This document shows positions 649 to 57,352 of a DNA stretch of 64,000 bases, piece after piece. The translations under genes and the position numbers were made by a program. The DNA comes from Dehalococcoidia bacterium. GTDB taxonomy: Bacteria; Chloroflexota; Dehalococcoidia; Tepidiformales; Tepidiformaceae. The DNA is taken from assembly GCA_009839725.1 (NCBI GenBank), contig VXPF01000102.1:1-64000 (forward strand). Reading direction: 5' to 3'. Below the pieces are notes generated by a model. It was given only the letters and a program-made list of their open reading frames with translations. It was not told where the DNA came from and did not search any database. The stretch's first letter is position 1; each line of letters opens with the position of its first letter.

Positions 649-3600
649 GCGTCCCTCCGACGCACGCCGGCCACGACTTCGACGCCGTCGAGCGTGAACG
701 TCGTCCGCTGCGCGTCCTCCGGCGGCGCCTCCGTGAACAGCTCCATGGACAGGGTCTCGGCCTTCACGTAGTCGCCGTGGGCGGCGAGGACGCGGGCGAT
801 GGCCTCGTCACCGGCGCACCAGGTGGTGATGCGGTCGCTCAGCTCGAAGTCCGCCTCGCGGCGTAGGTCTTGGATGCGGCGCACGAGCTCGCGCGCGACG
901 CCCTCGTCGGCGAGGTCGTCGGTGATGGCGGTGGCGACACCGACGGTGTAGCCGGCCTCGGTGACGACGGCGTAGCCCTCGCTCTCGCGCATCTCGACGA
1001 GGAAGTCGTCGGGGGCGAGGTCGTGCCCGGCAACGGTCACGTTGCGGCCGGCGCGGACGGCGGCGGCGACCTCATCCGCATCGAGGGCGGCGAGAGCGGA
1101 GCGCACCGCGCCGACCTCGCGCCCGAGGCGGGGTCCGAGGACGGGGAGGTTCGGCTTCACGTCGAACGTGACGATGCCGGCCTCGTCCTCCAGCGTCCGA
1201 AGGGCCTTCACGTTCAGCTCTTCCAGCAGGAGGGCCTCCTGGCGAGCGAGTACGGCGACTTCGCTGGCGTCGCGGGGGCGGACGAGCACCTCGGCGAGGG
1301 GCTGGCGCACCTTGATGGACGCCTTCGCCCGAGCCGCGCGACCAATGGAGGCGACGCGCTTGACGAGCTGCGTCTCGGCGTTCAGCGACTCGTCCACGAA
1401 CACGTCGCCTCCGGGCACGAGGGCGACGGGCTCGGGCCAGTCGGCGAGGTGCACGCTCTCGGGGGCGTCGCCATCGATGGAGCGGGCGAGGTTGCTCCAG
1501 AGCTCCTCGGCGAGGAAGGGCGTGAAGGGCGCCAGCAACCGCGCGAGGGTCGTGAGCGCCGTGTGGAGGGTGAAGTAGGCGCTGCGCTTGTCGGCGTCGT
1601 CACCGGAGACGCCCCGCCAGAAGCGGCGGCGGGAGCGGCGCACGTACCAGTTCGAGAGGTCATCGACGAACGTCTCGATGGCGCGCGAGGCGACGGTCGG
1701 GTCGTAGTCATCGAGGCCGGCGGTGACGCGCCCGGTGAGGGCGTTCAACTCGCTCAGGAGCCAGCGGTCGAGCTCGGGGGGCTCGCCCTCGGGGCGCTCG
1801 CGCGGGTCGAGGCCATCGATGTTCGCGTAGCTGACGAAGAAGCTGTAGACGTTCCAGAGGGTGAGCTGGAAGCGGCGCAGGCTCTCGTTCATGAGGCGCA
1901 CGCTGAAGCGGCGGGAGGAGCCGACGGGGGCGGAGGCGTAGATGTACCAGCGCACGGCGTCGGCGCCGAGGTCGTCGAGCAGGTCGAAGGGCTCGAGGAC
2001 GTTGCCGCGGCTCTTCGACATCTTGTTGCCCTGCTCATCGAGGATGTGGCCGTGGCAGATGACGTTGCGGAAGCTGATCTCCTCGGGGGTCGCCTCGGAG
2101 GCGTTCAGAAGCGCCGCCTCGGCGTGGAGGGTGTAGAACCAGCCGCGCGTCTGGTCGATGGCTTCGCAGATGAAATCGGCGGGGAAGGCGCGGTCGAACT
2201 CGTCCTGGTTCTCGAAGGGGTAGTGCCACTGGGCGTAGGGCATGGCGCCGCTGTCGAACCAGGCGTCGGCGACCTCGGGGACGCGGCGCATCTCGCCATC
2301 GCAGCCGCCGGCATCGCAGCGCAGGGCGATGGCGTCGATGTAGGGGCGGTGCAGGTCGTCAAGACCCTCGGCGGCGGCGCGGTCGACGGCCAGCTCCGCC
2401 AGCTCGGCCCGTGAGCCGACGACCGTCACCTGCGTGCACCCGTCGCAGACCCAGAAGGGCAGGGGCGTGCCCCAGTAGCGCTCGCGGCTGACGGCCCAGT
2501 CGATGTTGTTCTCGAGCCAGTTGCCGAAGCGGCCACGCTTGATGTGGTCGGGCTGCCAGTTGATGCGCGCGTTGCCGGAGAGCAGACGCTCGCGCTGGGC
2601 GGTAGTGCGGATGTACCAGCTCGGCTTGGCGTAGTAGAGCAGGGGCGAGTCGCAGCGCCAGCAGAACGGGTAGGTGTGGGTGATGCGCTCGCTGCGGAGG
2701 AGGAGGCCGCGCTCATCGAGGTCGCGGATGACCTCGCGATCGGCGTCCTTGGCGAAGAGGCCGCCGCCGGGCAGGCCCTCCGCCATCGTGCCGTGGGTAT
2801 CGATGGGCTGGGCGAAGAGGAGGCCGTACTGCTTGCCGTCCTCGAAGTCCTCGCCACCGAAGGCGGGGGCGATGTGGACGATGCCGGTACCGTCCTCGAG
2901 GGAGACGTGGTCGGCGACGAGGACGCGGCGCAGGCCCTCGGTAGGCTCGCCGGGGTCGAGGGCGCGGAGGTGGCCATCGTCGCCGAAGCGCCGGACCGTG
3001 GCGTCCAGATTCTCGGGCCGGTAGAGGGGCTCGTAGGCGAGGCCGACCATCTCGGAGCCACGGAATGTGCGGAGTGCGCCGCGCTTCTCGCCGAGGACGC
3101 TTTCGGCCAGCGCCTCCGCGACGATCAGGCGCTCGCCCTCGTGCTCGTAGAGGCCGTAGGGGGCCTCCTCCATGACGGCGAGGGCGGTGTTGCCGGGGAG
3201 GGTCCAGGGGGTGGTGGTCCAAGCGACGATGCTCGTGGGCGTCCCGTCGAGCCCGATGCGCTCTCGCGCCTCGGGGGGCAGCCGGAACTTGATGTAGACG
3301 CTCGGGTCGGGGACGTCGTCCTTGTAGCCCTGTGAGAGCTCGTGGTCGCTCAGGCTGGTTTCGCAGCGGGGGCAGTGGGGGGTGCTGCGGTAGTCCTGGT
3401 AGACGAGGCCGTGCTCCCAGAGCTGCTTGAAGATCCACCAGCAGGTCTCGATGTAGTCGTTGTCGTAGGTGACGTAGGGGTTGTTCATGTCGGCCCAGAA
3501 GGCGATGCGCTCGGTGAGCTCCTCGAAGTCGCCGACGTAGCGATTGACGCTCTCGCGGCACTGGGCGTTGAAGCGGTCGATGCCGTAGGCCTCGATCTCC

Positions 3601-56070: not shown

Positions 56071-56655
56071 CTAGCGCTTTGGGCGGCGCCAGCGGGTCCA
56101 ATCGAAGGGCTCGATGCCGCTCTCGGTGAGCTGCCAGATGGAGGCTTCGGCGCGGCCGTCCTCGATGTCGAGGAAGCCGATCGTGCCGAGCTGGGTGTTG
56201 AGGTTGTGGGGGTAGGTGGGCGAGCCGGGGTTCACGCAGAGGACGTCGCCCACCTGGTCGACGGCCTCGACGTGGGAGTGGCCGTAGACGACGACGTCGA
56301 GGTCGGTGCGGCCGAAGTAGCGCTCCATGGCGCGCTCGACGGTGAGGTGGGGCGGCATCTCGGGGACGGGCATGTCGTGCACGAGGCCGACGGTGACGCC
56401 ATCGAAGTCGAGGGCCCATGCCTCCTGGAGGAGGGGGTGCTCCGGCTGCACGGGACGGCCGCCGGAGCCGTCCTCGCCGTTGCCGCGGGCGGCCCAGAGG
56501 GGGGCAATCTCGGCCAGCTGGTCGAGGAGCCAGACCTCGTGGATATCGCCGCCGTGGAGGATGGCGTCTACGCCGCGGAAGGCGTCGAAGGCCTGGGGCC
56601 AGAGCTCGGCGCGCGACTCCGGGATATGGGTGTCCGAGATCAGGCCGATACGCAC
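56071..56655 (-). CDS. YfcE/MJ0936-type metallophosphoesterase
   Basis: MRIGLISDTHIPE; DAILHGGDIHE; ARGNGED; VYGHSHVEAVDQVGDVLCVNPGSPTYP. Confidence 0.95.
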   Translation of the reverse strand: MRIGLISDTHIPESRAELWPQAFDAFRGVDAILHGGDIHEVWLLDQLAEIAPLWAARGNGEDGSGGRPVQPEHPLLQEAWALDFDGVTVGLVHDMPVPEMPPHLTVERAMERYFGRTDLDVVVYGHSHVEAVDQVGDVLCVNPGSPTYPHNLNTQLGTIGFLDIEDGRAEASIWQLTESGIEPFDWTRWRRPKR

Positions 56656-56700
56656 CGGGGGAGTCTACCGCGAGGGGCCCAGGGTGGCTCGCCTTGAAAT

Positions 56701-56714
56701 AGAACGTACGTTCT
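56701..56714. promoter_or_regulatory. LexA-type SOS operator candidate (AGAACGTACGTTCT)
   Basis: Perfect 14-bp palindrome matching GAAC-N4-GTTC, placed between TTGAAA (56694-56699) and TAGCCT (56717-56722). Confidence 0.75.
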
Positions 56715-56728
56715 GATAGCCTCGAACT

Positions 56729-57352
56729 ATGTCCAGTCACCCCGTCCTCCAGCCAACACTCCTCGGGAACGAGGGGCCCTCCTTCGACCCGTCGTTCGCG
56801 GGCCTGCGACGCACTGAGCTCGCGTACGAGTCGTGGATCGACCAGGCGCAGGGTTTCCTGACGGGCCACCAGGGCGTGTTCGATGCGCTGCGCGACGACA
56901 CGCGCTGGCACGGCCATCAGCGCGTGATGTACGACCGCATGGTCGACGTGCCCCGCCTGACAGCGTCCATCCCGCGGGACGGGCCGGGGCACCCGGTCAT
57001 CCGCGAGATTGCGGACGCGCTGGGCGAGCGCTACGGCGCGACCTTCGACCTGGTGGCGCTGGCGCTCTACCGGGACGGGCGCGACAGCGTGGCGTGGCAC
57101 CGGGACAGGGCGCGCCGGGAACGGCGGGGCCGGGCGCTGGTGGCGACGCTCTCGCTGGGGGAGTCGCGGCGATTCCTCGTGCGTCCGCACGGGGGCGGCC
57201 CCTCGACGGCGTTCTCGGCGGGGTGGGGTGACCTGCTGGTCATGGGCGGGGCCTGCCAGCTGCACTGGGAGCACTGCGTGCCGAAGGCGCAGCAGGCGGG
57301 GCCGCGGATCAGCGTGATGTTCCGGAGCAGCGCGGACTTCGTGCGCTTCTAG
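56729..57352 (+). CDS. AlkB-like alpha-ketoglutarate-dependent dioxygenase
   Basis: ALALYRDGRDSVAWHRDR...LATLSLGESRRFLVR-type, HWEHCVPK, GPRISVMFR. Confidence 0.93.
   Translation: MSSHPVLQPTLLGNEGPSFDPSFAGLRRTELAYESWIDQAQGFLTGHQGVFDALRDDTRWHGHQRVMYDRMVDVPRLTASIPRDGPGHPVIREIADALGERYGATFDLVALALYRDGRDSVAWHRDRARRERRGRALVATLSLGESRRFLVRPHGGGPSTAFSAGWGDLLVMGGACQLHWEHCVPKAQQAGPRISVMFRSSADFVRF

Follow-up and report, generated by a model that had tools for sequence, protein, structure and literature searches.

We analyzed a stretch of 64,000 nucleotides (here called the window) from a Dehalococcoidia bacterium of the family Tepidiformaceae, together with the rest of its genome (2.83 Mb in 160 contigs). 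Toward the end of the window lies a putatively leaderless alkB homologue on the plus strand (56729 to 57352), which codes for a 2OG-Fe(II) dioxygenase of 207 amino acids (PF13532, 2OG-FeII_Oxy_2; 63.8 bits versus a cut-off of 31.2), and, divergent from it on the minus strand (56071 to 56655), the gene of a YfcE-type phosphodiesterase. The closest solved structures by sequence are those of human ALKBH2 and ALKBH3, whose iron- and 2-oxoglutarate-binding residues align with those of the bacterial protein, although they are eukaryotic and the significant alignment covers only residues 84 to 200. The HxD...H...RxxxxxR motif is intact, with H124, D126, H182, R193, and R199 aligned with their counterparts in human ALKBH3; these residues we take, from established knowledge of the family, to be the iron and 2-oxoglutarate ligands. 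Judging from them, we infer that the substrates of the alkB product would be N-alkyl lesions.

The promoter elements of alkB can be read directly from the sequence between 56690 and 56731 (cgccTTGAAAtAGAACGTACGTTCTgaTAGCCTcgaactATG). A −35-like hexamer, TTGAAA (56694 to 56699, plus strand), and a −10-like hexamer, TAGCCT (56717 to 56722, plus strand), are separated by 17 nt (56700 to 56716), and this spacer is filled by a perfect 14-bp palindrome, AGAACGTACGTTCT (56701 to 56714), with the core GAACGTACGTTC at 56702 to 56713. From the end of TAGCCT to the ATG at 56729 there are 6 nt. A first-pass annotation of this DNA had proposed the palindrome as a LexA operator, and on rereading the sequence its coordinates for both hexamers, the palindrome, the spacer, and the start codon all turned out to be exact. 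No Shine-Dalgarno sequence was found before the ATG, and among the genes of the window TAnnnT was commonest at −12 from the start (5 of 49 genes), which, with the −10 element 6 nt from the ATG, makes a leaderless alkB transcript plausible. The yfcE promoter has the same leaderless type of layout, its −10 element TAGACT (plus-strand positions 56662 to 56667) being placed 6 nt before a GTG start and conserved in relatives.

Palindromes of 14 bp are not rare by themselves, as we estimate that about 11 can be expected in 64 kb of DNA with 70% GC. The sequence GAACNNNNGTTC was found three times in the window versus 0.6 expected, and the other two sites fall within coding frames and have poor scores with the matrix described below. 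Across the genome there were 37 sites with GAAC-N4-GTTC, the LexA motif of Firmicutes and Actinobacteria (PMC3323433), versus 17 for the reversed control pattern.

A canonical LexA is encoded in this genome (TIGR00498 match, E value of 4e-52), with the cleavage site AAGEP (Ala-Gly), the serine in GTSMIED, and the lysine in TLKR all present, and so is RecA. As the observation that would speak against its reading, the first-pass annotation had named lexA and recA promoters with an operator of another kind. Both genes carry GAAC-N4-GTTC, and therefore the same type of operator as alkB, with GAACATCCGTTC located 14 nt ahead of the lexA ATG and GAACAGGCGTTC at recA. The automatic call of the recA start at a TTG was discarded as probably too far upstream, since relatives show GGGGAGGG followed by an ATG further down. 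The motif was also found just upstream of ruvB, dinB, an imuB-like polymerase gene, and the gene of a class II ribonucleotide reductase. We built a scoring matrix from seven boxes (lexA, recA, ruvB, dinB, imuB-like, nrdJ, and a small open reading frame [ORF]), leaving alkB out. With this matrix, the alkB box reached 21.3 bits, the top of the window (the runner-up had 15.2) and inside the range of the training sites (18.4 to 22.8), and it ranked second of the 37 exact sites in the genome. The 13 sites with at least 18.3 bits were mostly upstream of genes, while most low scorers were inside frames. It is this score, obtained with a matrix that had not seen the alkB box, rather than the palindrome as such, that is decisive for the operator.

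We then compared nine genomes of the genus, apparently metagenome assemblies, with a completeness of 89 to 96%. In all nine, the GAAC-N4-GTTC core ends 15 nt before the alkB ATG, and the invariant columns of the intergenic alignment are essentially TTG (in every member), GAACG...GTTCT, TA...T (the −10 hexamer keeps TAnnnT in all relatives), and the −10 element of the divergent yfcE. There is a 4-nt deletion in the alkB promoter region of L070, owing to which the usable −35 element is probably a TTGCCT further upstream. The lexA box is perfect in eight of the nine genomes, the ninth having one mismatch, and that of recA is perfect in five and one mismatch off in four, so that the operator of alkB is conserved no less well than that of lexA and better than that of recA. 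The close members of the genus, with AlkB identities of 91 to 94%, are not independent evidence, and most of the weight is carried by the two most distant ones (73% and 79%). Given its placement in the −35/−10 spacer in all nine genomes, the operator could block the alkB promoter.

Outside the genus, the gene is patchily distributed: none of the family's 27 other genomes had it, and it turned up in seven others among 400 genomes sampled across the phylum, compared to nine of nine within the genus. Of the 39 loci with actinomycetotal homologues (Nocardia, Kribbella, Nocardioides, Acidimicrobiia, and others), 27 had a perfect box in the 150 nt preceding the gene, where about 0.07 were expected (0.065, taken from the rest of the same loci), and its distances from the gene were similar to those in the genus. 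The lexA upstream regions of the Nocardia and Nocardioides genomes in this set have the same type of motif. No perfect box appeared within the same 150 nt in the 22 loci of the Chryseobacterium group. Two distant Chloroflexota homologues (L160 and L161) have TAGAAT-N4-GTTCTA, one mismatch off. In Myxococcota, the alkB upstream regions contain GTTCAGT elements that, by eye, resemble those before lexA in the same genomes, a likeness that we offer as a lead only.

The proposal of a LexA operator at this alkB homologue is thus borne out by the rank of the box in the matrix, its fixed position in nine of nine genomes, and the boxes of lexA and recA. We predict, with high confidence, that the core promoter of this gene for an AlkB-family dealkylating dioxygenase contains a GAAC-N4-GTTC LexA operator at 56701 to 56714, and LexA/SOS control of alkB in this genus appears very likely. 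The box might instead be bound by a LexA-like or phage-type repressor rather than by LexA proper; a second match to PF01726 (LexA_DNA_bind) exists in the genome (contig C11) and in some relatives, the protein on C11 has a further GAAC-N4-GTTC site at a distance of about 0.9 kb, and boxes with the same core are found near mobile-element-like genes on contigs C11 and C64. We regard this as improbable, because four of the nine genomes (G002, G003, G004, and G008) have a single LexA-domain protein and still keep the alkB box, whose score falls among those of the lexA and recA operators. Even less probable is that the operator is real and serves mainly the YfcE-type phosphodiesterase, with alkB expressed otherwise. 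The two divergent genes share a short intergenic region, with 46 nt between the operator core and the start of yfcE, but the box fills the −35/−10 spacer of alkB, whereas relative to yfcE it lies upstream of the promoter, and actinomycetotal alkB homologues carry it at similar distances; an additional effect of the operator on yfcE is possible, if not demonstrable. That the palindrome arose by chance in GC-rich DNA could be argued from the frequency of 14-base palindromes at this composition and from the many core sites in coding frames among the 37. We rejected this reading, which is in practice excluded by the conservation at a fixed distance, including two species with AlkB only 73 to 79% identical; the box in 27 of 39 homologues of another phylum and the separation in matrix score of the low-scoring coding sites from the upstream ones speak against it as well.

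Several other genes of the genome have boxes of this kind. The frame of the imuB-like gene, a Y-family polymerase (PF00817; L047:536-2051, G000:C118), is preceded at 10 nt by TCGAACATGCGTTCTA, the top-scoring box of the genome. Downstream of its own box, dinB (DNA polymerase IV; L049:2009-3192, G000:C122) is split into two frames (2023-2688 and 2725-3192), which may reflect a frameshift, a genuine interruption of the gene, or a misassembly. The palindrome TAGAACTATTGTTCTA (L029:2419, G000:C36) is located 36 nt before the gene of a 101-amino-acid helix-turn-helix (HTH) protein that adjoins ruvB, which has a box of its own, and AAGAACACCCGTTCTA (L048:1992, G000:C119) precedes a DUF5131 (radical-SAM-like) gene by 34 nt. 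Two large serine recombinase genes (L025:1989 on C14 and L028:2045 on C33) have the operator CAGAACGTCCGTTCTG in common near their 5′ ends, which suggests SOS-controlled mobile elements. Two nearly identical loci of XRE-type regulators (L023:1960 on C11 and L038:2003 on C64) both carry the GAACATCCGTTC box, and the one on C11 is located near the second LexA-domain protein. Finally, an ORF of 85 amino acids (MVNTIPTIIVEVLLAGSAVALLGATIRSMLPRR...; L054:2082-2400, G000:C158, about 85081-85399) with one hydrophobic N-terminal stretch is preceded by TTGACA, a spacer with GAACGGACGTTC, and TATGGT; there is also a second near-box, GAACGGATGTGC. This ORF is present in all nine genomes of the genus, with both boxes in the eight that could be read in register upstream, and a PHROG search gave no match for it. 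Its product is a candidate for a small membrane protein induced by SOS, and it might inhibit cell division in the manner of YneA or SidA.

SOS control of an alkB gene has precedents, so that this wiring is not new. The alkB of Streptomyces venezuelae (vnz_32390) belongs to the core set of LexA targets by ChIP-seq and was induced 11-fold by mitomycin in RNA-seq (PMC9380542); like that of the genus, it is an AlkB repair gene with the operator near the start codon. However, the box of this actinomycetotal gene is listed as degenerate (PMC9380542), whereas the Chloroflexota palindrome is perfect. In Mycobacterium tuberculosis, which also has a LexA of the GAAC-N4-GTTC type, the putative AlkB Rv1000c is among the SOS-box genes and is induced by DNA damage (PMC8151990, PMC7911356); we compare the two as AlkB homologues and not as established orthologues. 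A difference is the additional control by PafBC in M. tuberculosis, where alkB still responded to mitomycin in a recA-deleted strain (PMC8151990). The alkB of Escherichia coli, which belongs to the same enzymatic superfamily and has the same probable repair role, is controlled by methylated Ada and not by LexA, as the first-pass annotation had correctly contrasted. The Ada zinc-binding domain (Ada_Zn_binding, PF02805) was found in none of the nine genomes of the genus, with positive results for the E. coli and Bacillus subtilis controls, and at a completeness of 89 to 96% incomplete assembly is an unlikely explanation for an absence common to nine genomes. A literature search for LexA, alkB, and Chloroflexi together retrieved nothing. 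What is new here is the Chloroflexota instance and its breadth; the LexA motif of Chloroflexota itself is not claimed as new.

With LexA as the repressor, the expected sequence of events would be as follows. In the absence of DNA damage, a LexA dimer would sit over the −35/−10 spacer and exclude RNA polymerase and its sigma factor. RecA filaments formed on damaged DNA would then trigger the self-cleavage of LexA and open the alkB promoter, transcription would begin at the ATG or beside it and yield an mRNA for translation, and the enzyme would reverse N-alkyl lesions such as 1-methyladenine and 3-methylcytosine.

As for the origin of the gene, the AlkB of the genus groups in the tree with Myxococcota sequences (support of 99/93), and we therefore rejected a simple assignment of the donor to Actinomycetota. 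This grouping and the patchy distribution suggest a lateral acquisition by the genus. A tentative scenario, to which we give somewhat less than even weight, is that LexA control is ancestral to, or was repeatedly regained in, one whole AlkB clade found across Actinomycetota, Myxococcota, and this genus of Chloroflexota; after a lateral entry into the genus, the gene would have stayed under SOS control because the LexA of the new host recognizes its operator or readily evolved to do so, and the SOS response would replace the adaptive response in these Ada-less bacteria.

The box-bearing genes give an initial outline of the predicted SOS regulon in this Chloroflexota genus. With the operator preceding most of the sampled actinomycetotal homologues of this AlkB clade, as well as the alkB of an uncultured, Ada-less Chloroflexota genus, direct reversal of alkylation that is predicted to be linked to SOS rather than to Ada would extend beyond Mycobacterium and Streptomyces.
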